A stretch of 64,000 bases of DNA, taken from assembly GCA_030920305.1 (NCBI GenBank), contig JARLUB010000002.1:62001-126000 (forward strand), given 5' to 3'. Position 1 is the stretch's first letter. Each line of letters begins with the position of its first letter. This document shows, in pieces, positions 3,978-50,469 of this stretch. The position numbers and the translations under genes were made by a program. The stretch is from Eubacteriales bacterium SKADARSKE-1. Lineage in GTDB: Bacteria; Bacillota; Clostridia; Oscillospirales; Acutalibacteraceae. The notes beneath the pieces are model-generated. The model did not search any database. It worked only from the letters and a program-made list of their open reading frames with translations, and was not told where the DNA came from.

Positions 3978-5267
3978 ATGATCAATAAAAAATTATTAAA
4001 AAAGTCACATAGGCAATTAATTTTTATCCTTTGTATAACATTGGTTCTATTATTTAGTGGAATATTACTGATAGTACATAGTTGTTCAAATAATAAGAAT
4101 GATATTTTGCAAGAAAATCAGCAAAATGAATCGAGTAAAATAAATAATAGTACACCAACAGCGACTGCTACAGTAGGAAGTGTTGGTGATATATTATTGC
4201 ATAATCCAGTTTTAAGGTCGTGTTATAACAGCACTAATCAAACTTATGACTTTGGGGAGATTTTTTCGTTTTTTTCTCCATATATAAAAAAGCTTGATTA
4301 TAGTGTCGCAAATCTCGAATGTAGCATTAGCTCATCCCAATGGGGTTATTCGGGGTATCCTCAATTTAAGTCACCGGAAAGCATAGTTGATGCCGTGCAA
4401 AAAGCAGGATTTAAAATGTTATTGACAGCCAATAATCATGCAAATGATGGGGGAGCTAGAGGGGTTTTTCATACTATAGACGTTATAAAACAAAAAAATG
4501 CTGACTTTATTGGTAGTAAAGATGACGTTAGTGTGCCACCATATTTAGTTAAAGAAGTAAACGGAATTAAATTTGGCATGATTAATTATACTTTCGGCCA
4601 ATTTATAAAAGATGGTTTATCATCTTTAAATGGGATTCCATTAGATAAAAAGGCGAGTTCTGTTGTGAATGTATTTGATTATAATAAATTAGATTTATTT
4701 TATTCGCAGATGGAAACGGCAATTAAGAATATGAAAAATGATGGTGCACAGGCAATAATATTATATATACATTGGGGAAATGAATATGAATTAAAGCCTA
4801 ATAAATATCAAACAGAAATTGCTAAAAAAATGTGTGATTTAGGTGTGGATGTGATAGTTGGAGGCCACCCACATGTGGTTCAGCCTGTAGATATGTTTAC
4901 ATCAAGTGATGGTTCACACAAGATGTTTTGTATTTATTCTGTTGGAAATATCGTGTCGAATCAGCGAATTGCTTTGATGAATTTAAAAACTGGAAATACT
5001 GAAGATGGCGTGCTGTTTACAACAACTTTTACTAAATTTGATGATGGTAAAGTTACACTGACGGATGTAAATGTTTTACCAACCTGGATGCAGCTTTGCA
5101 ATATTAGCAAAAAACAATATAAAATAATACCGCTTGATAAATCTGTTGACTGGAATAAAGATTTTAATCTTGGACAAGATATGCAAAATGCTCAAAAATC
5201 TTATAACCGTACAATGGCATTGGTAAGTGAAGGAATACAAAAGTTTAAAGAAAATAAAGTTGGATGA
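3978..5267 (+). CDS. CapA-family metallophosphatase-like protein, membrane anchored
   Basis: A 429-residue protein of the CapA / PGA_cap family (poly-gamma-glutamate synthesis protein; calcineurin-like phosphoesterase fold). A signal anchor spans about 13-34, with a Cys at 36 in a poor lipobox context, so the catalytic domain faces outside. Metal-site motifs are intact: GD at 70-71, NLE at 112-114, ANNHAND at 151-157, HWG at 265-267 and GGHPH at 295-299. CapA domains occur in poly-gamma-glutamate capsule systems and in many orphan surface proteins. capB and capC are not nearby, so the substrate is unknown. The gene ends stop-to-stop against rmuC on the opposite strand. Confidence 0.85.
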   Translation: MINKKLLKKSHRQLIFILCITLVLLFSGILLIVHSCSNNKNDILQENQQNESSKINNSTPTATATVGSVGDILLHNPVLRSCYNSTNQTYDFGEIFSFFSPYIKKLDYSVANLECSISSSQWGYSGYPQFKSPESIVDAVQKAGFKMLLTANNHANDGGARGVFHTIDVIKQKNADFIGSKDDVSVPPYLVKEVNGIKFGMINYTFGQFIKDGLSSLNGIPLDKKASSVVNVFDYNKLDLFYSQMETAIKNMKNDGAQAIILYIHWGNEYELKPNKYQTEIAKKMCDLGVDVIVGGHPHVVQPVDMFTSSDGSHKMFCIYSVGNIVSNQRIALMNLKTGNTEDGVLFTTTFTKFDDGKVTLTDVNVLPTWMQLCNISKKQYKIIPLDKSVDWNKDFNLGQDMQNAQKSYNRTMALVSEGIQKFKENKVG

Positions 5268-6536
5268 TTAGTCTTCGTTATTTAAGATGTCTTCGTTATC
5301 GGGTTCGGTCTCTAAATTTAAGATTGATTTTGCTTCAAGTTCTGGAAACTTAGTAACGTCTTTTAACCTTCTTTGAATTTGTCTAGTGCGAACACCAACC
5401 AACTTGTCTAATTCACCGCTTGCTTGATTTAATCTTTCCTGAGTCTTTGCTAACACTTCAGAAAACTTTTGAAACTCAGTTTTTACAGCTCCTAAAACAT
5501 TCCAAACCTCGCCACTCCTTTTTTGAATAGCAAACGTTCTAAATCCCATCTGAAGGCTATTTAAAAGTGCCGCCATTGTACTTGGTCCAGCAATATTAAC
5601 ATGAAAATCGCGTTGTAAAATTTCAACCATTCCTCGATTAACAACTTCCGCGTAAAGCCCTTCAAAAGGCAAAAACATTATTGCAAAATCGGTTGTATTC
5701 GGGACATCTATGTATTTTTCTTTAATATCCTTGGCTTCTCTTTTTATAGTATCTAAAAGTATTTTTAGTTGGCAGTTAATTTCATTTTGGCTACCATTAT
5801 TGTAGGCATCTCTAAGATGACCATATGTATCCCCTGGAAATTTTGAATCAATAGGCAAATAAATAAAATTACCATCTTCAACTGGCAACTTAACAGCATA
5901 TTCAACCGCGTTGCGGCTATTTTTCTTTGTGATTACGTTTTTGTCATATTGCTCAGGAGATAAAATTTCTTCTAAAATGGCCCCAAGCTGAACTTCACCA
6001 ATAATTCCACGTGATTTTACATTACTTAATATTTTCTTTAAATCACCGACACCTTTTGCAAGGCTTTGCATTTCTCCAAGTCCTTTATAAACGTCTTGAA
6101 GTCGGTCATTTACAAATTTAAAAGATTCAGTCATTCTTTTGTTAAGTGTTTCTTGAAGTTTATGGTCTACAACTTGCCGCATTTCATCAAGCTTTTTGTT
6201 GTTATCTTCTCTGATGTTTTGCAGTTTTTCTGACATTAAACGCCGAATGTTGTCAAGCCTTTGCTCAGTTTCTATAGAGAATGTTTTAAACCGCTCTTCA
6301 TTTTGTTTTGTGCTTTGAAAGACAATTTTCTGCGTGCTATCAAGCTTTTCTGTTATAAGATTTGTCTGGTTATCTATATTATTTTTTAGGTTTTCAGAAA
6401 TCATTTTTCCAAGTTTTTCAGTAGTGTCGCTGTTTGAATCTTGTTTTTGCTTATATTTTGAAAACATTATTAATGCATAGATAATAAGGCCGATTAATAT
6501 CAAATTTAAAGTAATTGATAACTCATTTATATTCAT
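5268..6536 (-). CDS. rmuC: RmuC-family protein
   Basis: RmuC-family proteins have a predicted nuclease fold and are linked to suppression of recombination at inverted repeats. The 422-residue product has an N-terminal membrane segment (about 5-25), a long coiled coil (about 40-150, rich in KLDEMRQ-type heptads) and the RmuC core. The core carries the family words RGIIGEVQLGAILEEIL, PIDSKFPGDTY, FLPFEGLYAEV and GPSTMAALLNSLQMGF. I chose the ATG at 6536 because GGAGGA sits at 6545-6550 in the right spacing. A longer GTG start at 6554 would place that ribosome binding site inside the gene. It is convergent with the CapA-like gene with zero bases between stops. Confidence 0.92.
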   Translation of the reverse strand: MNINELSITLNLILIGLIIYALIMFSKYKQKQDSNSDTTEKLGKMISENLKNNIDNQTNLITEKLDSTQKIVFQSTKQNEERFKTFSIETEQRLDNIRRLMSEKLQNIREDNNKKLDEMRQVVDHKLQETLNKRMTESFKFVNDRLQDVYKGLGEMQSLAKGVGDLKKILSNVKSRGIIGEVQLGAILEEILSPEQYDKNVITKKNSRNAVEYAVKLPVEDGNFIYLPIDSKFPGDTYGHLRDAYNNGSQNEINCQLKILLDTIKREAKDIKEKYIDVPNTTDFAIMFLPFEGLYAEVVNRGMVEILQRDFHVNIAGPSTMAALLNSLQMGFRTFAIQKRSGEVWNVLGAVKTEFQKFSEVLAKTQERLNQASGELDKLVGVRTRQIQRRLKDVTKFPELEAKSILNLETEPDNEDILNNED

Positions 6537-12645: not shown

Positions 12646-12843
12646 AATGATTTTTGAGTTTACTTTACTGAAAATAGTTAAAAAATATAAAAGTGTGAGA
12701 CTTGTTAGTTTTGAGCTATAATAATGTTTTTTTGATAGATATTCCATTTTGTCGATTAATGTGATAAAATGTTACTATATTATTTACGCAAAGGATATTT
12801 ATGTTACAAAAATCTTATAAAAAAGAAAGGTAGGTTTAAAACT

Positions 12844-14142
12844 ATGGCAGAGAAAAATTTAAAAAGCTTATTGTCAATTGGGGTAAGTCTATGTATGCTT
12901 TTGGGGATGTTTACGGTAGGTACAATGGCGATGGAACCGGGAGATAGTGAGGAGACTCCAATTTTCATTAAGTCAAAATTAGATTTTGAGACTTTTGCAC
13001 AGGAAGTTAATGAAGGTGAAAGTTTTGAGGGAAAATATGTAAAACTCTCCAATGATATTTACTTAAATGCCAATGATTCTTTAAATGGTAAACCTATAAC
13101 ATGGAATCCTGTAGGATTTTGTTTTCTTAATGAGAATAATGGAAAAATTTCAGATAATTCAAAATCTTTTAAAGGAACTTTTGATGGAAATGGATTTTCA
13201 ATAATTTGTAATATAGACGAATTTGTAAAAAATGATGGGACGGATAAAACCGGGGCAATTTTTGGATATGTTGGAAAACATGGTGTTTTAAAAAATTTGG
13301 GTATTAGGGGTATAATTTCTGGAGAAAAGATTCAAGCTAGCGTATCTGCTCTTTGTGATGTGAATTGTGGAACTTTAGAAAATTGTAAAGCAAGAGCCAC
13401 TGTTAAAGGAGTTTATGGAGCAAGCGGGTTAGCTTTTATTAACTGTGGAACAATAAGAAAATGTGAGGTTAATGGAAAGATTTTATCTAGGGACTTAAAT
13501 TGTGCCGGTATTTGTAGTACAAATTACGGGGAAGTAGATTCTTGTAAAGTTCATGCACTTTTAGCAAATTGTCAGAATGGTGGAATAGCTGGAGACAATA
13601 ATTATTTAACACCAGAGACAGGTGGAATAGCATCATTTAATTATGGTAAAATAACCAATTGCTTTGTAAATTCTTATATTTCAAATAAAAATATAGAAAC
13701 TCTTAAAAATTATGAGATTTATTTAAAACAAAAAAGCGATGGAAAGAACGCTTACATAGGCTGTGCGGGTGGTATCGTTTCTACAAATAATGGGCTTATA
13801 GAAAATTGTAAATTTACCGGTTCTGTAAATTCCTATGAAGTTGGAGGAATTGTTGGAATAAATTATGAAATTGTAAGGTCTTGTGAAACAGACTGTCATA
13901 TGATGGGTGCTATAATAGGTGGAATAGCCGCACAGAATATCTTGGGCGATAAGGATTATTCAGGTGAGCTGGTGTTAGATCATCAGGGAGGATATATAGC
14001 TAACTGCAATTCAAAGTCAGATATTAAATCCTTATTTTTGATGGGGGATATTGTTTGTACTGATTACTGGGAAGATAGCCATGCAACCGTAGAAAATTGT
14101 ACTGCTTCTTCAAAAGTTGTATATTTGCAAGAAACAAATTAA
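12844..14142 (+). CDS. Secreted GLUG-repeat surface protein
   Basis: A 432-residue exported protein with a signal peptide at about 1-30 (cleavage after GTMA). The body is made of beta-helix-like repeats of the GLUG type: a hydrophobic G-x-I/V-G-x-N/A element followed by G-x-I-x-N/S-C, for example NCGTLENCKA, NCGTIRKCEV, NYGKITNCFV and NNGLIENCKF. Such repeats occur in bacterial adhesins and IgA-protease-like surface proteins. Many repeats carry one Cys at the same place, so disulfide laddering is possible if the exterior is oxidising. I chose ATG 12844 because the signal peptide begins there. An upstream in-frame ATG at 12769 lies within the promoter region. No anchor motif is visible. Confidence 0.75.
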   Translation: MAEKNLKSLLSIGVSLCMLLGMFTVGTMAMEPGDSEETPIFIKSKLDFETFAQEVNEGESFEGKYVKLSNDIYLNANDSLNGKPITWNPVGFCFLNENNGKISDNSKSFKGTFDGNGFSIICNIDEFVKNDGTDKTGAIFGYVGKHGVLKNLGIRGIISGEKIQASVSALCDVNCGTLENCKARATVKGVYGASGLAFINCGTIRKCEVNGKILSRDLNCAGICSTNYGEVDSCKVHALLANCQNGGIAGDNNYLTPETGGIASFNYGKITNCFVNSYISNKNIETLKNYEIYLKQKSDGKNAYIGCAGGIVSTNNGLIENCKFTGSVNSYEVGGIVGINYEIVRSCETDCHMMGAIIGGIAAQNILGDKDYSGELVLDHQGGYIANCNSKSDIKSLFLMGDIVCTDYWEDSHATVENCTASSKVVYLQETN

Positions 14143-14421: not shown

Positions 14422-15936
14422 TTAGTTAATAGAAATCTTATCTAAATTTAAATAAAAACTAACAACGGCATCGTGTTTATTAGTATTTTTGTTTTTTAAC
14501 TTAAAATTAATTAACTCTGCACACAATTGTTCTAAATATTCATTTACACTACGAGCACCTTTTATTTTTGTGGTACATTGTTTTGCAATTTCTTCTATAG
14601 TAGCAGGGGTTATAGTTAGTTTTATTTTGTACTCATCATTGCAGTATTTAATAAATTCATTAAACTTAGTTGTGATTATTGTCCGATAATCTTCATCGGT
14701 TAATGGTGAAAATTCAATCAAAGTAAATCTGTTTAATAAAGATTGATCTCTTTTTACTAGTGTTCTTGCCGCAGATTTATCGGATAAGTCAACTTTGTTT
14801 TCTTGGCGACCGAGTGCGACTCCGTTTGTTAAGCTTTCTTTACTTTCGTTAGTTGTCATAATAATAACAGTGTTTGAAAAATCTAATTTTTGATCGTCAA
14901 TTATAGCGTAACCTCTGTCTAAAATTTGACGTAAAAATTCATCAATTGTAGCATGGGGGTCAAAATTTCTCATTTTATCAATTTCTTCTATTAAAAGAAC
15001 AGTGTTAGGGTTAGTCATTATTTGAGCTGCTAGTGGAGATGTTTTCGTAAGTTTTTCTCCTTTTGTGCCTACAGTTTCAATTTTTCCAAATATTTGTTCT
15101 ATAGGGGACTTATTATTATCAATTTTTATCATTGAAGGGTTTATGACAATAGGTTCGCTTGTCCCACATAATGATTTTGCAATTATGTTGGCAGATTCAG
15201 ATTTACCAACACCGGAGTCTCCATATAAACATAAAACACAGTTTGTAGCGGGTTTCTTTCCAGAGATTCTGGCTCGTTTCTTTTCTTCTTGAAATGAAGC
15301 GATCTTTTGTATCATAGCTTCTTTAGCCTCTTTTTGGCCCACTATAACTCTTAAGTTGTCATTAAGAATTTCTATTATTTTCTCAGGGTTGTTTTGCATT
15401 TTTCTAAAAGAAACATTAAAGTATGAGGACACTTTATTATAAAGCCTATTACCAAAATTGAAAATTGCTCCGAAAATGCCTATGCTTTTAGATGCTATAA
15501 GTAAAGAAAATAACGTTAAAAGTATAGTTGCCATTTTATTAGGATCAATTTTTTCAGCAAATTCTGACCATTTTAATCCTGCTGCTTGAGCAGTATGACT
15601 TAACACTTCATTAGTTAAACTAAGTAATGCCCTTGAAGACGCATTTGGAAAAATTTTAGGAAAAAGTTCATGTATATCTGAGTATGATAAGCCAAAACCT
15701 TTAAGTTTTTGCACCCATTTAAACCGCTCCTCGTTGCAAGTGTCTTCGTCATAATTTTGCTGGACGGCCCCATAGTAACTCTTTGAGGTATATGTTTTTG
15801 TAAAATCACAGCTGTCGTAAGCTTTTTCATCAAATACATATTCGGGTTTAAAATTAATTTCTGCGTTTACACTTATTCCTATGGTGCCTTGAAGTAACAA
15901 GATTAGTGCTATAAATAATGATAGAATTTTTTTCAT
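14422..15936 (-). CDS. AAA+ ATPase with N-terminal signal peptide and membrane segment
   Basis: A 504-residue Clp/torsin-like AAA+ ATPase. Residues 1-26 look like a Sec signal peptide (SVNA before EIN). A roughly 105-residue domain with two cysteines follows, then a hydrophobic segment at about 136-160. The AAA+ module starts near IVGQKEAKEAMI (198-209) and has Walker A GDSGVGKS (239-246), Walker B VLLIEEID (313-320), sensor-1 Asn in TTNES (363), an Arg finger in LLNRF (403) and sensor-2 GAR (460-462), so it looks active. If the 136-160 segment crosses the membrane, the ATPase faces the cytoplasm, as in FtsH. The basic residues after it favour this. If not, the whole ATPase is exported, as with torsins. 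GGAGGA at 15942-15947 supports the start. Confidence 0.82.
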   Translation of the reverse strand: MKKILSLFIALILLLQGTIGISVNAEINFKPEYVFDEKAYDSCDFTKTYTSKSYYGAVQQNYDEDTCNEERFKWVQKLKGFGLSYSDIHELFPKIFPNASSRALLSLTNEVLSHTAQAAGLKWSEFAEKIDPNKMATILLTLFSLLIASKSIGIFGAIFNFGNRLYNKVSSYFNVSFRKMQNNPEKIIEILNDNLRVIVGQKEAKEAMIQKIASFQEEKKRARISGKKPATNCVLCLYGDSGVGKSESANIIAKSLCGTSEPIVINPSMIKIDNNKSPIEQIFGKIETVGTKGEKLTKTSPLAAQIMTNPNTVLLIEEIDKMRNFDPHATIDEFLRQILDRGYAIIDDQKLDFSNTVIIMTTNESKESLTNGVALGRQENKVDLSDKSAARTLVKRDQSLLNRFTLIEFSPLTDEDYRTIITTKFNEFIKYCNDEYKIKLTITPATIEEIAKQCTTKIKGARSVNEYLEQLCAELINFKLKNKNTNKHDAVVSFYLNLDKISIN

Positions 15937-22228: not shown

Positions 22229-23983
22229 TTAACGAAAACAACTAGTATCACTGAAAACAATTCCCTTTTCAGCATTTAAAGTAACAGTAGTGCCGCTGTG
22301 TAAAAATTTAGTTGCATTTTTGGCGCCAACGATTACTGGTTTATTTAAAGCTAGTCCAACACTTGCGGCATAAGAATCTCTTCCATCAATTTCAGTTATT
22401 ATTCCACTAGCTTCCTTTATTAACCCAAGACTTTTTTTAGAAACCGCAGGAATTACCAATATGTCTCCAGTTTTTAAATTTTTTCGGGCTTCTTTTTCAT
22501 CTGCACATACACAAAGGTTTGCACAAATTGATGACTTTGTAATACCAAGGCCAGAAACTAAAATGTTTCCAACAAGGTGAACTTTTAGAAGGTTTGTAGT
22601 ACCTGAATTTCCAAATGGTACACCGGCAGTTAAAACAACAAGATCTCCATGAGATATAAGACCTTCACTTTGTGCTGAGTTAACAATGTTTTCAATAAGT
22701 TCATCAGTATTGTTTTTTTCCTTCATTAATATAGGAGTAACTCCCCATAACAAGTTCATTTGCCTCATTACTGTTTTACTAGTTGTCCCAGCTATAATAG
22801 GGCAACTAGGTTTATATTTAGATATAGCTTCAGCAGTTGCCCCTGTTTTAGTAACTGTCAATATAGATGTGGCACCAAGATCATGAGCTGTTGAACATGT
22901 AGCGTGAGAAATAGCAGCTGTAACAGTGGTTATAGGTATTGCATCTTTTTTAGTAAACCTTTTTTTATAGTCAATATCACGTTCAGTTCTCTCAGCTATT
23001 TTGCTCATAGTTTTAAGTGCTAAGACTGGATATTTGCCAGCAGCGGTTTCAGCTGAAAGCATAATAGCACTAGCACCATCATAAATAGCATTTGCAACAT
23101 CGGTGGTTTCGGCTCTAGTTGGGCGAGGCTGTTTTACCATAGAATCTAGCATTTGAGTTGCAATAATTACATGTTTTCCAACATCGTATGCTTTTGATAT
23201 AAGTTTTTTTTGAATTATGGGAATTTCCTCCATGGGAATTTCAACGCCCAGGTCTCCTCTTGCTACCATTATTCCATCAGAATTTCTTAATATTTCATCA
23301 ATATTATTTAAGCCCTCAGAGTTTTCTATTTTCGAAATAATTTTTATATGATTTCCGTTATACTTTGAAAGTTCTTCTTTTAAAAGTTTAATATCCTCAT
23401 AAGATCTAGTAAATGAAGCAGCAATAAAATCAAAGCCTTCATCTACTGCAAACTTAATATCTTCTTTATCTTTTTTGTTTATAAAAGGAAGGGGTAAGTT
23501 AATTTCAGGAATATTTATCCCTTTATTTGCAGATAAAATGCCACCATTAACAACCACACAAGTTATAGTATTATCATCACATTCTACAACTTTTAGTTCT
23601 ATGAGGCCATCATCAATTAAAATTTTTATTCCCGGGTAAATATCTTTAGTAAGCTTTTTGTAACTTATGCTAACGCCATTTTCATCACCAATAATATCTT
23701 CAGTGTACAAAGTAAACTTTTTTTTGTTTTTAAGATGGATTTTTGGTGTAGAGAATGTACCTATTCGTATTTCTGGACCTTTAGTATCTAGTAAAAGGGC
23801 AACCGGTATGTGTAATTCTTTACGTAGCTTTTTTAAACTATTAATACGATTCTTTCTTAAAATTTCGGTTTGATGGGACATATTAAGTCGAGCAACGTTC
23901 ATTCCATTTAGTATAAGATTTCTTAAAGTGTCTTCATTATCTGTGGCAGGGCCTAAAGTGCAGACGATTTTTGTTTTTCTCAT
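22229..23983 (-). CDS. pyk: Pyruvate kinase with C-terminal PEP-utiliser domain
   Basis: Pyruvate kinase (phosphoenolpyruvate + ADP to pyruvate + ATP), 584 residues. The N-terminal part starts RKTKIVCTLGPATDNE. The catalytic barrel contains ISKIENSEGL and the signature MVARGDLGVEIP, then IIATQMLDSM and ADV-type TTDVANAIYDG. The allosteric domain ends near 475. The extra C-terminal domain of about 105 residues (LKTGDILVIPAVSKKSL and GVALNKP-like GLALNKPVIVGA) is the PEP-utiliser-like extension found in Bacillus-type enzymes. AAAGGGAGA supports the ATG. It is transcribed alone. Confidence 0.96.
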   Translation of the reverse strand: MRKTKIVCTLGPATDNEDTLRNLILNGMNVARLNMSHQTEILRKNRINSLKKLRKELHIPVALLLDTKGPEIRIGTFSTPKIHLKNKKKFTLYTEDIIGDENGVSISYKKLTKDIYPGIKILIDDGLIELKVVECDDNTITCVVVNGGILSANKGINIPEINLPLPFINKKDKEDIKFAVDEGFDFIAASFTRSYEDIKLLKEELSKYNGNHIKIISKIENSEGLNNIDEILRNSDGIMVARGDLGVEIPMEEIPIIQKKLISKAYDVGKHVIIATQMLDSMVKQPRPTRAETTDVANAIYDGASAIMLSAETAAGKYPVLALKTMSKIAERTERDIDYKKRFTKKDAIPITTVTAAISHATCSTAHDLGATSILTVTKTGATAEAISKYKPSCPIIAGTTSKTVMRQMNLLWGVTPILMKEKNNTDELIENIVNSAQSEGLISHGDLVVLTAGVPFGNSGTTNLLKVHLVGNILVSGLGITKSSICANLCVCADEKEARKNLKTGDILVIPAVSKKSLGLIKEASGIITEIDGRDSYAASVGLALNKPVIVGAKNATKFLHSGTTVTLNAEKGIVFSDTSCFR

Positions 23984-42410: not shown

Positions 42411-42660
42411 TAAAAAAACGCTATCATCCCCACACAAGGGACGAAAGCGTAACTTCCGCGGTACCACCCTAATTTTTGCTAACAGCAAACACTTCTATTG
42501 GAATATAACGGTTCCAACCGGCACACCCTACTTTGATTTTCAAGTGCACAGCTCGAAAGTGAACTTCATCTTTTTGTCTTGCTGGTATGCTCTCAGCCAC
42601 GGCACGCCTCTCTCATAACAAGACACTTAAAAAGACTACTCTCTTTGTCATCGCTTTTAT
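42411..42660 (-). ncRNA. T-box riboswitch, tRNA-Phe type, upstream of pheST
   Basis: The minus-strand leader contains the canonical T-box word TGGTACCGCG (42466-42457). The terminator follows: stem ACGCT / AGCGT with CCC / GGG, then a run of seven Ts at 42417-42411. Upstream it has stem I elements: an AGAGAG-type distal loop region near 42610 and a likely UUC (Phe) specifier complementary to forward GAA at 42561-42563. Uncharged tRNA-Phe should stabilise the antiterminator and switch pheST on. Confidence 0.93.
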
Positions 42661-42976: not shown

Positions 42977-43975
42977 TTATTTGTTTTCAAAAAGTTTGTG
43001 GTAGTCATATTTTTCTTTAGGTAATTCAATTAAATCACCAAGAATTTTATTGTATTCGGGCGGATCGAATTTACAGCTTCCAGAAGCACTTGTAAAGGTA
43101 ATTTCTCCAAATTTCAACGTACCATCATTTAGCCGATAAAAATCAACTCTTGCATGAGCAAACCCTTCTGAAAGTTTTGTGGCAAGGTCTAAAATTTTAT
43201 TCAAATTAGCAGGTTTAGGAAGTAGGTTTTCATGTTGTGGGTAAGTATATGTAAACGGCATTAAGTTCCATTTTGTGTCGTAAAATGACATTTTGAGGCC
43301 ATTTTTTCTATTGGATAGGTACATTATAAAATCAGCTCTGCCATTGTTACACCAAACTTTATAGTCATACAAATCGCCACCGTCATTTTCCATGTATTCT
43401 TCAGCAATGATTTTTGGTTTCATGTTTTTATATTGAAGTTCTAAACCGGCACGAAAAGCATAGTTTGTGTTTATCCATGTATCAAATTTTTTCTTAGCTT
43501 CGGCTTTATTAAAGTTACTTTTATCAGTAACAACAATATTCCACCCTGAACCGTGGTTACATTTCAAGACAAACTTATCTGGCAACTTGTCAAAATTTAT
43601 ATCATCAAACTTATCCCACACACCTAAAAGTGGTACCAAGTATTCTTCACCAATTTTTTCTTTCACCCAATCTCGAACTAAATATTTATCAGCGAGTTTA
43701 GTTTTTATAGGGGTGCTATCATAAAGTTTAAGCCATTGAATTTTTTCATTATACGTTGTCGGGTTTTCTAAGTTTAGTTCAGATTTTGTTAACCTTTTAT
43801 ACCAAGCTTTTAATTCTTCTGAGTATTTATCTGGAGGTAAATTTTTATAGTATTCATATCGGGTTTGATTAATATCTTTAGCTTGAACTTTTAAATTTGA
43901 AAATGTACCGTTTTGAAATAAAACAAATATAAAAAGGAAACAAATGACTTTTTTAGCCAAACATCTAAAATTCAT
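42977..43975 (-). CDS. TupA-like ATP-grasp protein with signal peptide
   Basis: A 332-residue protein of the TupA-like ATP-grasp family found in polysaccharide and teichuronopeptide gene clusters, where it would join an amino acid or sugar acid by an amide bond using ATP. Family words include NPTTYNEKIQWLKLYD, KLADKYLVRDWV, LPDKFVLKCNHGSGWNI, KIIAEEYMEND (ATP-grasp) and ARVDFYRL and FGEITFTSASG (metal-binding Asp/Glu). Residues 1-32 are a Sec signal peptide (VQA before KDI), which the family normally lacks, so the ATP-dependent domain appears exported. Last gene of a three-gene minus-strand operon, 7 bp after the preceding gene. Confidence 0.82.
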   Translation of the reverse strand: MNFRCLAKKVICFLFIFVLFQNGTFSNLKVQAKDINQTRYEYYKNLPPDKYSEELKAWYKRLTKSELNLENPTTYNEKIQWLKLYDSTPIKTKLADKYLVRDWVKEKIGEEYLVPLLGVWDKFDDINFDKLPDKFVLKCNHGSGWNIVVTDKSNFNKAEAKKKFDTWINTNYAFRAGLELQYKNMKPKIIAEEYMENDGGDLYDYKVWCNNGRADFIMYLSNRKNGLKMSFYDTKWNLMPFTYTYPQHENLLPKPANLNKILDLATKLSEGFAHARVDFYRLNDGTLKFGEITFTSASGSCKFDPPEYNKILGDLIELPKEKYDYHKLFENK

Positions 43976-43982
43976 TTTTATA

Positions 43983-44912
43983 TCATTCCTTTAACATATT
44001 ATCCGTAAGATAAATTTTTTCTATTCCCATTCCTTTTAAAATATTTTTAACTTTTATTAAATTAAGGTGATCTTTACCTAATGCCCGTTTACCTTTTGTA
44101 TTAGTATTTATGCTAGTTAATGTTGGAATATCAGAGAACCCATACTTTTGCATGCTATTTTCATAAATAAAATTGTACCTGTCCTTTATATCACAAGTCT
44201 TTACTATTTTTGTTCCATTAATTATTGCACAAAATGTGAGCCAAATATCATCAGTTGTCGTGAATTCGGACATAAATAAATCTTTATCAAACACTTTATT
44301 ATTAAAACTATGCGGTGGATATAAAACTCCACCAACTCCGTATAATACTACGCTTTGAGTTGGCGTATGTTTTTTTATCGCTTCATCACGCCACCCGCCC
44401 CAAGATAAATAACAGTCATTTCTAAGGGGTGAACATAAATTGCTGATTATGTAGTTGGGAAATTGTTGATTTTCTTTAAGCAAATTTTCAACAAAGTTTG
44501 GCAAATATTCCATATCATCATCTATTGTAATAATTGTACTTTCAGGAAAAAGTTTTAAAGCTGGGATTAGTTTTCCGTATGGACCTATTTTTTCGTTGAT
44601 CCAATTTATTTTTACCTTGTCCTGTAAATTATTATGAATTAATATTTGATTTATAACATTTTTATCTTCATCTGTATTTTCTTGGTTGCAAAGATTCAAT
44701 AAAATAATATCAGGAGCAACTGTTTGTTTAGAAAGAGATTTTAAGGTATAGGTTAAAATTTCATATCTTTTAGGATATGAAGTAAGTGAAACTATAGTGT
44801 GTGGTGTACCAAAATCTTTATCTTTTTCGTCTGAAAAGACAAGAGGTTCTTGGATACAAAGCATAAACATTAAACTTGCCAATAAAGTCAATAATATCTT
44901 ATTTTTCCTCAT
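43983..44912 (-). CDS. Glycosyltransferase (GT-A type) with signal peptide
   Basis: A 309-residue glycosyltransferase-like protein. After a signal peptide (1-27, VFS before DEK) comes HTIVSLTSYPKRYEILTYTL, a beta-alpha-beta nucleotide-sugar fold. A DDD metal motif lies in IITIDDDMEYLP (131-133), GPYGKLIPAL precedes it and YGVGGVLYPPHSF follows. This is a family of putative glycosyltransferases in capsule and LPS clusters; donor and acceptor are unknown. AAAGGAGA precedes the ATG. The gene starts 15 bp after the GT2 gene and precedes the TupA-like gene. Confidence 0.8.
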   Translation of the reverse strand: MRKNKILLTLLASLMFMLCIQEPLVFSDEKDKDFGTPHTIVSLTSYPKRYEILTYTLKSLSKQTVAPDIILLNLCNQENTDEDKNVINQILIHNNLQDKVKINWINEKIGPYGKLIPALKLFPESTIITIDDDMEYLPNFVENLLKENQQFPNYIISNLCSPLRNDCYLSWGGWRDEAIKKHTPTQSVVLYGVGGVLYPPHSFNNKVFDKDLFMSEFTTTDDIWLTFCAIINGTKIVKTCDIKDRYNFIYENSMQKYGFSDIPTLTSINTNTKGKRALGKDHLNLIKVKNILKGMGIEKIYLTDNMLKE

Positions 44913-44927
44913 AAAATACTTTCTCCT

Positions 44928-45947
44928 TTAAACTACAGTATAATTTTGAATAGCCTGTACTTTTTTTTGTAAGTAATTTGGTAATTGTTTTAGCGTTTTT
45001 TCACTATAAACATCATTACCTAAAATGTCAAAAAATCTTTTACAATAAGAACATTTAAGATCTGGATCTAATTTATTTACAAGCAGGTCATATAATCTCC
45101 ATGTGGCCCACCTGAGTAAATCAACTTCGTTATCTTTTATGAATCCAGAACTTCTCCAATCGTCCAAAAAATATTGAAGTTGATCTAGTTTTTTTTGAGT
45201 ATGCGTGTTTATATTGCTCCATGTTGTAGAGCTAGCACTGTTTCCCACTTGTTTTCTCCAGTGATATAATTTATTTGATAAAAAGGAAATGTTTTTTGCA
45301 AATGGAAAAACTTTAAAACAAAAAACGGTATCCATTCCATAACGTTCTTCTCTAAACCAAATGTTATTATCTAAAAGCATATCCCTTTTATAAATTTTAT
45401 TCCAAATAACAAGTAGTGCTTTGGAATATTCTTTAAAGCACTTTTGATTTTTAAAGCTTGCATCTATTGAATCTATTGGTTTAACAAAATTGTCTGAGAA
45501 CGATTCTCCACCAAAAACAACAATGTCTGCATTATCCTTTTTTGCTCTTACATAACTCATTTCATATGTATTTGGTTCAATGTAGTCATCTGGATCGACA
45601 AACCCTATGTACTCTCCAGTTGCTATTTTTAATCCCAAGTTTCTCGCAACGTATGCACCTTGATTTTTTGTTTGTTTTATTAACTTGATACGGTTATCAC
45701 TTTTTGCGTATTCATTTAAAATATTAAATGAATTATCTGTAGAACAGTCGTCAATGCAAATGATTTCAATATCTTTTAAAGTTTGATTTACTATACTGTC
45801 CATGCATTCCTGAAGATATGGTTCTACATTGTATACCGGTATAATTATTGAAACTTTAGGCTGATTTGAATCTGCTAAAACGTTTATACCCAAAGAAAAA
45901 AGAAAGATCATAAACAATAAAAAAATTGAAGTAATTCTTTTTGTCAT
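44928..45947 (-). CDS. Family 2 glycosyltransferase with signal peptide
   Basis: A 339-residue GT2 enzyme. Residues 1-25 are a signal peptide (cleavage after NVLA). The catalytic domain starts immediately with PKVSIIIPVYNVEPYLQECM. It has ICIDDCSTDNS (first Asp pair), a DPDD metal motif (118-121) and NQGAYVARNLGL. No further membrane helix is present, so the catalytic domain should face outward. I chose ATG 45947: AAAGGAG is seven bases before it, whereas an in-frame GTG at 45956 touches that site. Paralogue of the GT2 at 47468. Confidence 0.87.
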   Translation of the reverse strand: MTKRITSIFLLFMIFLFSLGINVLADSNQPKVSIIIPVYNVEPYLQECMDSIVNQTLKDIEIICIDDCSTDNSFNILNEYAKSDNRIKLIKQTKNQGAYVARNLGLKIATGEYIGFVDPDDYIEPNTYEMSYVRAKKDNADIVVFGGESFSDNFVKPIDSIDASFKNQKCFKEYSKALLVIWNKIYKRDMLLDNNIWFREERYGMDTVFCFKVFPFAKNISFLSNKLYHWRKQVGNSASSTTWSNINTHTQKKLDQLQYFLDDWRSSGFIKDNEVDLLRWATWRLYDLLVNKLDPDLKCSYCKRFFDILGNDVYSEKTLKQLPNYLQKKVQAIQNYTVV

Positions 45948-46393
45948 TATTGTCACTCCTTTTTTTAATTACCCTTATGACATCGTTGAGTAATATTCTT
46001 ACAAGTCACTTTAAAACAAGGCTGAGAGACGCTGAGAACGTCAAACAGGTTTTTGTAAAAACCCCTTTCTTATTGTCTTTTTAAATTAAAAGTTAAAACA
46101 TATTCAAACAATTAAAATTTAGATAAATAATATATTTGTCATCAATGCTTTTTCAACAAAGTATAAAAAATTAATAAATATAATATCACAAATCACAATA
46201 TTTTACAATATATTTTCTAAAGATGTTTAATTCAAGTTAATTTACACGATAAAATGATAAATTTTAAACTTAATGTTGAAAAATTTATTTTTTGTTTGGC
46301 GAATATTACAATTTTTTGTTTTTTTAAAAAAAAAACTTTAAGTTTTTTAAAAAATATGTTATACTAAATTTATTTTGTTGGAGGTGAAGATGT
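45948..46393. other. 446-bp divergent intergenic region with leader hairpins
   Basis: It separates the two arms of the saccharide cluster. In the minus-strand leader are GGTTTTT / AAAAACC (around 46048-46064) and GACG / CGTC (around 46031-46046), followed by TCTCAG words that occur twice. The arrangement does not match a riboswitch class I can name. The forward promoter lies at 46360-46365. The remainder is AT-rich with homopolymer runs. Confidence 0.5.
46337..46365 (+). promoter_or_regulatory. Extended -10 promoter of the forward saccharide arm
   Basis: TGTTATACT (46357-46365) is an extended -10 with TATACT at 46360-46365. The -35 region (46337-46342) is only weakly matched. It is 29 bp ahead of the GTG start at 46394. 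Confidence 0.5.
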
Positions 46394-47362
46394 GTGAAAA
46401 TAAAAAAGTTTTTGTTAAAATGCGCAGCGATGATTTTCTCTTTAGCAATGTTGCTGGGTTTATTTTCTAACAATATTGCTTTGGCAGACAACTCACAAGG
46501 TTTATCTACAAAGGAAATGGCTGAAAAAGAAAATGCTTTAGCTGGGTTTATGGGTTTTGAACAATGGATAGATGTTAATTTAAATGGAAAATTGATCAAA
46601 GTTGGTATTTGTTCACTTGATAGAATAATTGAAGATGGTTCTAAGTTACATGGAAACTTTCTTGACAAAGGCACACGAGAATATAATAAGCTGTATAGAA
46701 AGCTTGATGCTCAGGATAAAATTGAAGATGTACAATTTTTAAATTTAGAGGTTCTTAAACCTGATGGAAAAACAAAGTATGGTAATTTGAAAGGTCATTT
46801 TACTTTTTTTGTAGAAATTCCTGATGACTGGGATCAAGAAAAACTTGAAATTAGACACGTTTCTTCTTGTATAGACGAAAAATTTAAGAAAAGTTTTATT
46901 ACTATTGATGGTAGGCGGTATTTATATTGGGAAACAAGAAATTTTAATACGTATGCTATTATTAATAAATCGAATGTATCTGATATAGAGAGAATAGAAG
47001 TTCCTACTACTTTTAGCTTGACACGCTGGCTTATTCTGTCTTCGGCAAAAGCTAGTTCAGCCATTTTTGGAAAAAATGTTACCACTGGGCTAAAATTTTC
47101 ATACAAGTTTCCAATTATAGAAAAGGTAGAAATTAATAGTGATGAGGCTACATTTTACCTTAAAAAAGTTCCTAAGTTATGGAAAGGTAAGTTAGCTTTA
47201 TGTACTATTGGGCAGAAAGATATTATGGAAACTATATCTAATTATGATCCTTTAACTGGATTTACTGTTTCAGGTTTGCAATTTGATACTGATTATGCTG
47301 CGATACTTTTTGATAGTGCAGGAATATGCTCTGTTTATACTTTTGTATCTGATACATATTAA
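46394..47362 (+). CDS. Secreted surface-type protein opening the saccharide arm
   Basis: A 322-residue exported protein starting at GTG 46394 behind GGAGGTGA. The signal peptide covers 1-31 (ALA before DNS). A middle domain (about 105-190) ending in YLYWETRNFNTYAII resembles the small beta domain found in surface proteins of gut Firmicutes that ends FTTDHFSTYVI. The C-terminal part has an Fn3/Ig-like pattern ending in GLQFDTDYAAILFDSAG. No anchor or catalytic motif was recognised. A terminator follows, so it may be expressed more strongly than the two genes after it. Confidence 0.7.
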   Translation: MKIKKFLLKCAAMIFSLAMLLGLFSNNIALADNSQGLSTKEMAEKENALAGFMGFEQWIDVNLNGKLIKVGICSLDRIIEDGSKLHGNFLDKGTREYNKLYRKLDAQDKIEDVQFLNLEVLKPDGKTKYGNLKGHFTFFVEIPDDWDQEKLEIRHVSSCIDEKFKKSFITIDGRRYLYWETRNFNTYAIINKSNVSDIERIEVPTTFSLTRWLILSSAKASSAIFGKNVTTGLKFSYKFPIIEKVEINSDEATFYLKKVPKLWKGKLALCTIGQKDIMETISNYDPLTGFTVSGLQFDTDYAAILFDSAGICSVYTFVSDTY

Positions 47363-47380
47363 CTTTTACCAATATATTTT

Positions 47381-47418
47381 ACACTTCGTTGTACTAGGGA
47401 TACAATGAAGTGTTTTTT
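47381..47418 (+). terminator. Terminator between surface protein and GT2 gene
   Basis: The 13 bp stem ACACTTCGTTGTA (47381-47393) pairs with TACAATGAAGTGT (47401-47413, one G-U) and is followed by six Ts. Confidence 0.85.
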
Positions 47419-47467
47419 CTGTATTAATAATAAGTGTTACGCAAAATTTTATTTTTTGGGGTTAATC

Positions 47468-48451
47468 ATGAACGGTAAAATTAAAGCAATTATATTTTTA
47501 TGCATAATAATTTGTACAAGCTTAATTAAGCTGCCTACAGTTGCAAACAGCAATGAACCCAAAGTTTCTGTTATAATTCCAATATATAATACAGCGTCTT
47601 ATCTTAGAGAATGCCTGGATAGTGTCACAAATCAGACTTTAAAGGATATAGAAATAATTTGTGTTAACGACGGGTCAACTGATGATTCTTTGAGGATCAT
47701 ATTAGAATATGCCCAAAAGGACGCTAGAATAAAAGTTTTAAATACGAAGAACAAAGGTGCCTCTGCTGCTCGAAACAGTGGGCTAAAAATTTCAAGCGGT
47801 GAGTATATAGCATTTATTGATTCTGATGATTGGCTAGATTTAAATACGTATGAAGTAAGTTATGAAAAGGCCAAACAAAAAGATGCTGATATTTTAATTT
47901 TTGGGGAAGACAAATTTTCGGTTGTAGATAAGTCTTATAAAAATCCATTTTATGCATTGGAATCTTCAGGCTCTATGCTGATTTGGAATAAACTGTATAA
48001 GCGTTCATTTTTAGTGCGAAATAACCTTTTCTTTTATGAAAAAGCAAAGTGTTATAATGACGAATGTTTTAACAGCGTGGTATTCCCTAAAGCCTTTAAT
48101 ATAGAGAGTATTTCAAATAAATTTTATCATTATAGAAGAGGAAGAAAAGGGTCACTACAGACTTTGACCAGCTCAAAAGGAAAAATTGAAAATGCTATAA
48201 TTTATGCAGAATATGTGTGCAATAATTGGCGGGAAAACAATTATATAGATAAATATGGAGTGTATTTGTTAAAAAAAGTTAGTTTCATGATTAATAGAAG
48301 CATTAAAAAATTAGAAAACTACAATGAAAAAGTTTTTTACACAACTAAATTAATAAAAATTTTAGGGAGTGATATATATAATCAGAAAAATATAAATAAA
48401 TTGGACGAATTTACACAATCACTATTGGAAAATTGGATTCAATATGTATAA
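47468..48451 (+). CDS. Family 2 glycosyltransferase with signal peptide (second copy)
   Basis: A 327-residue GT2 paralogous to the one at 44928-45947: same layout, shared [11 protein letters not shown] word, and DSDD metal motif at 118-121. The signal peptide runs to TVA (24-26), after which [12 protein letters not shown] begins directly. I chose ATG 47468 with GGGG at 47459-47462, because an upstream in-frame ATG at 47405 lies inside the terminator hairpin. The gene overlaps the region just before the dehydrogenase gene, which starts 20 bp after its stop. No second membrane segment. Confidence 0.85.
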
Positions 48452-48470
48452 AAGAGGAGAGGATATTTTT

Positions 48471-49769
48471 ATGAACAATAGAACAAAATTGTTAAGTTTT
48501 TTGGTGATGATTTTTCTTATAATTTCATCATTAACGGTACCATCTTTAAATGTCTTGGCAGAAACGGATGATACAAAACATCCAACAAAAATAGCAGTTG
48601 CGGGTATGGGTTATGTGGGTATTTCAAATGCTGTACTGTTGGCTCAAAATAACGATGTTTATGCTGTAGATATAGTTAAAGATAAAGTAGATATGATTAA
48701 TAATAAAAAGTCACCTATTGCTGACAAAGAAATTGAGGAATATCTTTTTAATAAGGATTTAAAGCTTACAGCAACAACAGATGCAGAACTTGCATATAAA
48801 GATGCTGATTATGTTATTATTGCAACACCAACTGACTATGATACAGAACGAAATTATTTTAATACGGCTTCGGTTGATGCTGTGATAAAATCTGTTATGA
48901 AAGTTAATCCGAAAGCTATTATAGTTATAAAGTCAACCGTACCGGTTGGTTTTACTGAATCTGTAAGAAAAAAATATAATTGTGATAATATAATATTTTC
49001 CCCAGAATTTTTAAGAGAGGGTAGAGCCTTATTTGACAATTTGTATCCATCACGTATAATTGTTGGAACAATAATTGATAATCCGCGATTAACAAAAGCA
49101 GCAGAAGGGTTTGCAAAACTTTTAGCACAAGGGGCGAAAAAAGAAAATATTCCTATTCTTTTGACTAATTTAACGGAAGCTGAAGCAATAAAACTTTTTT
49201 CAAATGCATATCTTGCATGCCGGGTTGCTTTTTTTAATGAACTTGATACATATGCCCAAGTAAATAACTTGGATGCAAAACAAATTATAGATGGGGTAGG
49301 GCTTGATCAAAGAATTGGTAGTCATTACAATAATCCTTCATTTGGGTATGGTGGTTATTGTTTTCCAAAAGATACAAAACAATTGCTTGCTAATTTTAAA
49401 GGTATACCCAATAATATTATTGAAGCTATTGTGAAATCCAATGATACACGAAAAGATTTCATTAGCAACCGTATTGCAAACAAAAGTCCTCAAGCAGTCG
49501 GAATTTATAGGTTAATAATGAAGTCAAACTCTGATAATTTTCGTCAGAGTGCTATTCAAGGTATAATGGAGAGGCTGAAAAGCAAGGGGATAGAACTTGT
49601 AATTTATGAACCGACATTAAATACAGATACTTTTTTAGGGTATAAGGTTATAAACAAATTAGATGAGTTTAAAAAGTTATCGGATGTTATTCTTGCAAAT
49701 AGGTATAATGATGACCTTATCGATGTAATTGATAAAGTATATACAAGGGATTTATATTTTAGAGATTAA
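48471..49769 (+). CDS. UDP-glucose/UDP-ManNAc dehydrogenase with signal peptide
   Basis: A 432-residue nucleotide-sugar 6-dehydrogenase family protein (NAD-dependent two-step oxidation of UDP-sugar to UDP-uronic acid). Active-site elements are intact: GMGYVG Rossmann loop (45-50), [31 protein letters not shown], the Lys in [12 protein letters not shown] (241) and the catalytic Cys in [10 protein letters not shown] (297). Unlike normal cytosolic members it has a 30-residue Sec signal peptide ending NVLA before ETD. ATG 48471 is preceded by GAGGAGAGG; an in-frame ATG at 48444 overlaps the GT2 gene. UDP-glucose is a likely substrate, but ManNAc cannot be excluded. Confidence 0.9.
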
Positions 49770-49854: not shown

Positions 49855-50469
49855 TTAGCTATCAGGGCCTAGACTTACAATTATTTTAACTTCAGAACCA
49901 TAGTCTAGAGTTTCTCCAGCAGAGTGATCTTCATAACCAATTACAATATCTTTAGAAACAGTATTGCTATGTTGCTGAGTTTTTATTGGTATAAATCCTT
50001 CAATATTGAGGTTAAGGCAAGCTTCAGATAGGTTTAAACCGCTAACAACTGGTTGAGATCTACTTTTTGGGCCTAAGCTTACAGTGGAAGCGATGATTAC
50101 TCCTCTTTGTACCAAAGAGCCTTTTTCTGGTTTATGTGAGAGTATATAACCTTTTTCTACTGTATCACTAAACTGTTTGTCTAGTAACAAAAGCTTGAAC
50201 TCTCCTGTTTCGTTAAAAGTTTGTTTCATCTTTTCAAAATTTAAGTTTATCAAGTTTGGCACGATAATTTCTGCTGGGCTTTTTTCAGATTCACTTTTGA
50301 GATGGGGATCTAATGTGTTAGTAAAATTACCAAATGAAGTAAGAGTAAAGTATGAGAAACAGATCAAAATTAAAGTAACTACTGCAGGTGTTACTAACCA
50401 AAAAGAATTTTTATAACTAAGCTTAATATCTTTTTTATACTTTTGACATGATTTTTTTTGATTTTTCAT
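49855..50469 (-). CDS. Standalone PASTA-domain membrane protein
   Basis: A 204-residue protein: basic cytoplasmic N-terminus, one membrane helix (about 24-46), then two PASTA domains (about 67-133 and 138-202), each ending VSLGP. PASTA domains bind muropeptides or beta-lactams in PrkC-type kinases and penicillin-binding proteins. No kinase or transpeptidase domain is attached. The domains could sense wall fragments or compete with a PASTA kinase elsewhere. GGAGG precedes the ATG. Single gene, transcribed toward the saccharide cluster. Confidence 0.85.
   Translation of the reverse strand: MKNQKKSCQKYKKDIKLSYKNSFWLVTPAVVTLILICFSYFTLTSFGNFTNTLDPHLKSESEKSPAEIIVPNLINLNFEKMKQTFNETGEFKLLLLDKQFSDTVEKGYILSHKPEKGSLVQRGVIIASTVSLGPKSRSQPVVSGLNLSEACLNLNIEGFIPIKTQQHSNTVSKDIVIGYEDHSAGETLDYGSEVKIIVSLGPDS

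Follow-up and report, generated by a model that had tools for sequence, protein, structure and literature searches.

Six adjacent genes of Eubacteriales bacterium SKADARSKE-1 (Acutalibacteraceae), located at 42977–49769 of the stretch of 64,000 nucleotides analysed here and referred to as the window, encode a TupA-like ATP-grasp ligase, a GT-A-like glycosyltransferase, two GT2 glycosyltransferases (GT2a and GT2b), a surface-type protein and a UDP-glucose 6-dehydrogenase (Ugd), all of which begin with a Sec-type leader. The reading preferred here, held with somewhat better than even confidence, is that these genes equip a putative intracellular parasite with a set of outward-facing enzymes for glycan assembly, and that this assembly would draw on the ATP, NAD and nucleotide sugars of the host. 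At the level of sequence this reading is supported by the leaders, the start codons, the intact motifs, the conservation of the cluster and the spread of leader-bearing transferases over small-genome relatives. An earlier note, made from the letters of the window, had proposed exported enzymes that act on a glycan in a host compartment: the leader, the cluster and the orientation lend this proposal partial support, whereas secretion, the host, the substrates and the choice between the bacterium's own surface and a host target are deduced. To our knowledge, no set is known that combines the export of a dehydrogenase supplying the sugar donor with that of several transferases and of an ATP-grasp ligase. 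In line with the earlier note, which knew of no described system of this kind, no title or abstract that describes an exported Ugd, or glycan enzymes with leaders in this clade, was found in the literature searched, from which preprints and most subscription papers were absent.

The six genes form two divergent arms: the TupA-like, GT-A-like and GT2a genes make up the minus arm, and the surface-protein, GT2b and Ugd genes the plus arm (Table 1). Each protein opens with a basic and hydrophobic segment with an A-x-A-like end, which scores as a Sec-type leader. The leader caller is a purpose-made heuristic, not SignalP, and errs on N-terminal Rossmann segments, for instance at L018:1683. The positions and leaders reported in the earlier note were confirmed, with the starts corrected for GT2a, GT2b and Ugd, whose likely start codons lie inside the listed open reading frames (ORFs). 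A Shine-Dalgarno match of 4–5 bases is present at five of the six likely starts, that of GT2a among them, and none was found at the likely start of GT2b. The stretch that links leader and catalytic domain is free of ATG, GTG and TTG in all five enzymes; the surface protein has two possible starts after its leader, both devoid of a Shine-Dalgarno match. Within the leaders, a single later start, a TTG at residue 8 in the GT-A enzyme, is preceded by a 4-base match. Wrongly chosen upstream starts, a danger to which the earlier note had pointed, are therefore rejected as the explanation, because no enzyme offers a start between leader and domain and because of the pattern of Shine-Dalgarno matches. 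The view that no second membrane segment returns the proteins to the cytosol is likewise borne out: no hydrophobic 19-mer was found past the leader in any of the six.

Table 1. Features of the leader-bearing glycan cluster (window coordinates)
Feature	Coordinates	Strand	Details
TupA-like ATP-grasp ligase with N-terminal leader	42977..43975	-	leader ~43880-43975; PF14305 E 7e-57
GT-A-type glycosyltransferase-like enzyme with leader	43983..44912	-	leader ~44832-44912; weak GT2-type profile matches
GT2 glycosyltransferase with leader (GT2a)	44928..45956	-	PF00535 E 1e-38; likely start ATG 45947
Intergenic region separating the divergent arms	45957..46393	.	gene layout
Exported surface-type protein (predicted)	46394..47362	+	leader; domain common to proteins of small-genome relatives
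GT2 glycosyltransferase with leader (GT2b)	47405..48451	+	PF00535 E 1.5e-37; likely start ATG 47468
UDP-glucose 6-dehydrogenase (Ugd) with leader	48444..49769	+	likely start ATG 48471; PRK15057 E 1e-169, short of the model's curated threshold

The concentration of leaders is hardly a matter of chance. Of the 56 non-overlapping ORFs in the window, thirteen (7 of 50 outside the cluster) have a leader and no more than one hydrophobic stretch, and the six cluster genes form, with a single-anchor ORF at 49855, an uninterrupted run of seven. When the order of the genes was shuffled 200,000 times, such a run was reached in only 63 cases. The adjoining PheS and PheT ORFs are negative under the same rule.

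The proteins behind the leaders retain the signatures of working enzymes. Ugd, the single match of its search in the genome, possesses the three Pfam domains (NAD-binding, central and UDP-binding) and, from residue 48 through its C-terminus, can be aligned with UDP-glucose dehydrogenases of known structure, cysteine segment included (E 5e-160), the alignment with 3phl spanning residues 48–441; the leader therefore precedes a complete enzyme. GT2a and GT2b both preserve the nucleotide-binding [DN]D[GC]S motif and a DxDD-type motif. The GT-A enzyme displays a DDD motif and other residues that are invariant across four aligned sequences, its own included; its AlphaFold model, which is of low confidence (mean predicted local distance difference test score 53, predicted template modelling score 0.55), consists of alternating strands and helices, and a PDB sequence search yielded repeat-protein noise only. 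The TupA-like protein is the sole PF14305 match of the genome and has many positions that are invariant among three sequences; a PDB sequence search with it gave nothing credible. Judged by sequence, the catalytic motifs of the cluster enzymes are intact, as the earlier note had maintained on the strength of the motifs it saw.

The leader is shared by one homologous cluster and is absent from the other readable homologues of Ugd and TupA. The homologous cluster (L120) resides in a genome of 1.4 Mb, G425, which reappears in the collection as G482, in the genus of G396, with the same coordinates and an identical 400-base test piece. A homologue of the surface protein comes first and is followed by a GT2, Ugd, a further GT2 and a GT8–TupA fusion; leaders are found on the GT2, Ugd and the fusion. 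The window GT2b is 56% identical to the leader-bearing GT2, Ugd 61% identical to its counterpart, and TupA 63% identical to the TupA part of the fusion. Over these matched parts identity is thus 56–63%, whereas the leaders share only 5–8 identical residues of 30–32: the property of bearing a leader has therefore been kept, not its letters. The further GT2 (C19:20274; leader L120:7215-7330) is 39% identical to GT2a, and its leader apparently begins at an ATT right after AGGAGG, the start given by the ORF lister being too late. Next to this cluster lies a phage-tail-like protein (L120:10186-11478, recognized by eye), a hint of mobility. A viral origin of TupA was considered and discarded: no relative emerged in a scan of viral contigs, and the phage-like gene was named by eye only.

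Elsewhere the picture is different. In a survey of Ugd that fetched 80 loci of named genomes (61 tested by script, 14 read by eye and 5 not viewed), 74 of the 75 loci tested are leaderless, the sole exception being that of G425; none of the six close relatives with a readable N-terminus carries a leader. Leaders on TupA were encountered only in the window genome and G425: within the order none of the 20 other loci that were read has one (five loci were not read by script), and within the family 0 of 26 others. The family search covered 399 genomes and provided loci for 30 of 61 matches, 2 of the 30 giving a neighbouring ORF. At two TupA loci (L407 and L408) there is a hydrophobic stretch at the first possible start, but no leader call. 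A locus of an uncultured member of the Clostridia (L176, CALWKG010000004.1) encodes a leaderless protein composed of a GT2 domain, a GT-A-like middle segment homologous to the window GT-A enzyme and a TupA domain, beside a leaderless Ugd. This leaderless fusion is likely to represent an earlier state of the cluster.

Leader-bearing transferases extend well beyond the two clusters. Twelve small genomes were compared with 12 larger members of the family, all of them drafts. The small set comprises ten genomes with an ATP/ADP translocase match, that of the window included, together with G405, which was added for the shared surface domain, and G425, added for its leader-bearing Ugd; the larger genomes do not figure in the list of translocase matches, and for most of them the lack of a translocase is read from this absence. 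Under a strict rule, which demands a leader before the GT2 domain and no later hydrophobic 19-mer, 18 of 96 GT2 domains qualify in the small genomes and 0 of 133 in the larger ones (Fisher p 6e-8). Because the window itself contributes three of the 18 proteins and the choice of G425 was based on its leader Ugd, the count was repeated without these two genomes: 14 of 71 against 0 of 133 (p 2e-7). Under a looser rule the counts are 20 of 96 and 2 of 133; in both of the control cases the true start seems to lie later. The 96 are what is left of 98 matches after removal of a fragment in the window genome (C19:31436) and of a copy with stops in G330 (C22:13685), and the 133 controls derive from 134 matches minus one fragment (G034:C17:14249). 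The strict count fell from 19 to 18 when G000:C19:32015 (G000 being the window genome) was taken out, as its hydrophobic stretches are unlike a leader and its nearest relatives are leaderless controls; the further GT2 of G425 with the apparent ATT start lies outside the 18. For GT8, 21 of 24 domains bear leaders in the small genomes against 0 of 4 in the larger (p 0.0017): the coded rule gives 20, to which a GT8 domain placed behind a leader GT2 in one protein of G381 (C7) was added, and the three misses are a leaderless copy, a fragment and the broken copy of the window genome. Seven of the 12 small genomes hold at least one strict leader GT2, and ten hold a leader-bearing transferase of either family. 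Genome size, and probably base composition too, distinguishes the two sets; as an internal control, most GT2 domains of the small genomes are leaderless. Since 77 of the 96 fail the strict rule, AT-rich noise is an unlikely source of the leaders.

In a tree of 16 leader GT2s, the further GT2 of G425 and the 44 nearest leaderless sequences, the leader-bearing forms group together, with 3 changes against a mean of 15.1 after shuffling, and may have had a single origin. A DxDD-type motif is detected by a simple pattern in 15 of the 18; the three without it include a GT92-like protein and the GT-A enzyme of the window. Further enzyme types carry leaders in stretches fetched from these relatives: a UDP-galactopyranose mutase in G381, adjoining a leader-bearing GT2–lectin–GT8 fusion; a Stealth protein with a ricin lectin in G352; a GT2 with a ricin lectin and, elsewhere, a GT92 in G405; and GT8 proteins with a ricin lectin in G330 and G405. 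The lineage may have moved whole nucleotide-sugar and glycan routes outside its membrane (dehydrogenase, mutase, GT2, GT8, GT92, Stealth, lectin-fused forms and ATP-grasp ligase), building a coat or host glycans on host ATP, NAD and UDP-sugars. This wider view, to which slightly less than an even chance is assigned, would amount to a Golgi-like assembly line that lies outside the cytoplasm and is composed of ordinary capsule enzymes of bacteria.

The same 18 proteins bear on orientation, which the earlier note had left open. In 14 of them the hydrophobic segment is preceded by a higher charge than follows it, and in four the charges on its two sides are equal. The excess favours an N-in/C-out topology with outward-facing catalytic domains, with or without cleavage of the leader. 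The opposite arrangement, in which the segments tether the enzymes to the inner membrane face (N-out, C-in) and the chemistry stays in the bacterial cytosol, could appeal to some relatives whose segments are long, uncleaved-looking and positively charged on both sides. It is nevertheless quite improbable, given that in none of the 18 does the charge after the segment prevail, that several leaders, those of the window cluster included, have A-x-A-like ends followed by acidic residues and that GT8 proteins of G370 show lipobox-like ends by eye. Export without catalysis, the enzymes serving in place as lectin-like or antigenic surface proteins which merely retain a glycosyltransferase fold, is judged very improbable: the assumed metabolite content of the host compartment and two short leader GT2 copies would suit it, whereas the prevalence of the DxDD-type motif, the full-length Ugd and the invariant positions of TupA argue against it.

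The organism itself is probably an intracellular bacterium or parasite. Its genome measures 1,383,341 bases at 98.3% completeness, and guanine-plus-cytosine (GC) content, as seen in the window, is 27–38% by 2 kb block. Approximately 10 kb before the window it encodes an ATP/ADP translocase (G000:C12:50177-51643; PF03219 E 2.5e-132), central to the view of the organism as an energy parasite, which is also found in G425 (E 2e-136) and, in total, in 10 of 151 family genomes, its own included, all of 1.0–1.8 Mb, the match in G352 being weak. The surface-protein domain has matches in 6 of the 151, again including its own, all of 1.0–1.4 Mb. Passages of a published description of the Acutalibacteraceae small genome clade present the translocase (TlcC) as a hallmark of the clade, whose genomes span 0.86–1.4 Mb with 30–39% GC; three named members inhabit the cytoplasm of termite-gut protists, two being seen within a host membrane, and human-gut genomes are also included (PMC10579323). 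SKADARSKE-1 fits this clade, and intracellular life is likely because a genome of 1.38 Mb is combined with a translocase that is the hallmark of a clade with microscopically studied intracellular members. The check for an intracellular symbiont proposed in the earlier note thus turned out in favour of such a life. In a PheT tree the window genome, G425, G396, G335 and G330 are joined with a Shimodaira–Hasegawa-like approximate likelihood ratio of 100, and the remaining small genomes are placed elsewhere on long branches, so that the tree does not gather all small genomes in one clade.

The preferred reading, that of an outward-facing glycan assembly set, can be cast as a scheme in which we infer export, location, host, substrates, product and purpose of the six genes from their sequences. 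Sec would carry the enzymes across the cell membrane, where they would be released or kept as N-in/C-out anchors, in the host vacuole or cytoplasm surrounding the bacterium. This compartment should contain ATP, since the bacterium's translocase would draw ATP from there; NAD and UDP-glucose are assumed to be present. Once outside, Ugd would oxidize UDP-glucose to UDP-glucuronate, sugars would be transferred by the GT-A and GT2 enzymes, and the TupA-like ligase would attach an amino acid or a similar group to the product. The likeliest acceptor would be the surface protein encoded in the cluster, or else the wall of the bacterium, with host glycoproteins as an alternative, and the outcome would be a glucuronate-rich, host-paid coat on the bacterium.

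Several observations weigh against this reading. The leader calls rest on a heuristic caller, and equal charge flanks the segment in the four leader GT2s mentioned above. Five of the 12 small genomes (G005, G335, G370, G380 and G396) are without a strict leader GT2, and G005 and G380 also lack a leader GT8. The GT8 of the window genome itself (G000:C21:43951-44718, L439) combines a leader with a second hydrophobic stretch and an in-frame stop, and is perhaps decaying. The two short leader GT2 copies are of 157 residues (G405) and 167 residues (G352), and one sequence that groups among the leader GT2s, G425_C6_72001, lacks a leader. G405 harbours leader GT2s and has no translocase match, assuming the same genome draw, and the G352 match is the weak one. 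Furthermore, the window encodes pyruvate kinase (22229-23983) and glycogen enzymes, named by reading, and the genome therefore seems less reduced than those of published endosymbionts.

Should host glycoproteins or glycolipids be the target, the exported enzymes would be effectors that remodel host glycans instead of building a bacterial coat. This principal rival is considered unlikely, although it draws strength from the relatives, in which leader-bearing GT2, GT8 and Stealth domains are fused to ricin-type lectin domains, an architecture that occurs in eukaryotic GalNAc-transferases. It is also in keeping with the Sec-leader eukaryotic-like proteins encoded by published clade members, at least 20 of 42 such proteins having predicted signal peptides (PMC10579323). 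On the other side, Ugd, the GT2s and TupA would together make a coat-type gene set, a surface protein is co-encoded in the clusters of both the window and G425, and a Pfam search detected no lectin domain in the window enzymes.

Another destination of exported enzymes would be the space between the forespore membranes, the set serving spore formation. The cytosol of the mother cell is, however, the usual site of spore glycan synthesis, and no strict leader GT2 occurs in the 12 larger relatives, although these need not be spore formers. A Spo0A-like regulator in the window, matched below that model's curated cut-off, and the endospores recorded for two published members in the same account (PMC10579323) point towards sporulation, which as an explanation of the cluster is nonetheless extremely improbable.

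Some neighbouring and scattered genes deserve mention. Upstream of the phenylalanyl-tRNA synthetase genes, outside the cluster, lies a T-box leader (42434-42660, minus strand). A ClpB-like AAA+ ATPase (14422-15936, minus strand) carries a Sec-type leader and, around residue 134, another hydrophobic stretch, and G425 encodes two tandem leader-bearing relatives (L223:3572-4927 and 5158-6474; 27–32% identical); an ATP-driven machine with a leader fits the export theme. A leader-bearing protein with a weak GLUG motif (12769-14142, plus strand) has a relative in G425 that is 35% identical (L221:3461-4657). Possible exported lipid enzymes are a leader-bearing LCAT-like protein of the window genome (L016:6160-7416) and a leader-bearing class 3 lipase of G352 (L226:957-2423).

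If the reading of an outward-facing assembly set is true, an organism that imports host ATP also runs biosynthesis outside itself, and the NAD, ATP and UDP-sugar content of the compartments around intracellular bacteria becomes testable. The leader would moreover be a readable marker with which to spot more such systems in uncultured lineages. Among known organisms, the small genome clade, with Candidatus Improbicoccus and Paraimprobicoccus, shares a small AT-rich genome, the translocase and Sec leaders on putatively host-directed proteins; the proteins described there are regulators of eukaryotic type, among them GTPases and kinases, the term glycosyltransferase is absent from the main text, supplements aside, and SKADARSKE-1 seems to keep more metabolism (PMC10579323). 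In Bacillus halodurans, TupA is linked to teichuronopeptide, a polyglutamate–polyglucuronate wall polymer (PMC8153356). This link suits the presence of Ugd beside TupA, the two cases having in common a TupA-type protein and glucuronate chemistry; the chemistry of the window protein is proposed by analogy with its family name and the polymer. The other TupA relatives that were read are leaderless, the B. halodurans protein itself not being among those compared. The fusion at L176 has the same enzyme types side by side with Ugd as the window, yet it is devoid of a leader or hydrophobic stretch, and its Ugd starts directly at the Rossmann fold.

Exported glycosyltransferases that use host nucleotide sugars are familiar from NleB/SseK, the Legionella Lgt proteins and the large clostridial glucosylating toxins. 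If exported as predicted, the transferases of the cluster, with their leaders and motifs, would resemble these, but those systems are single transferases with dedicated delivery or self-entry, whereas here a multi-enzyme set bears plain Sec leaders. Eukaryotic glycosyltransferases of the Golgi type have a short N-terminal anchor, a lumenal catalytic domain and, in some, a ricin-type lectin domain. The resemblance to these enzymes lies in the layout of anchor and lectin, no homology of the systems being claimed, and the layout is realized here with bacterial GT2 and GT8 domains and predicted export through Sec.

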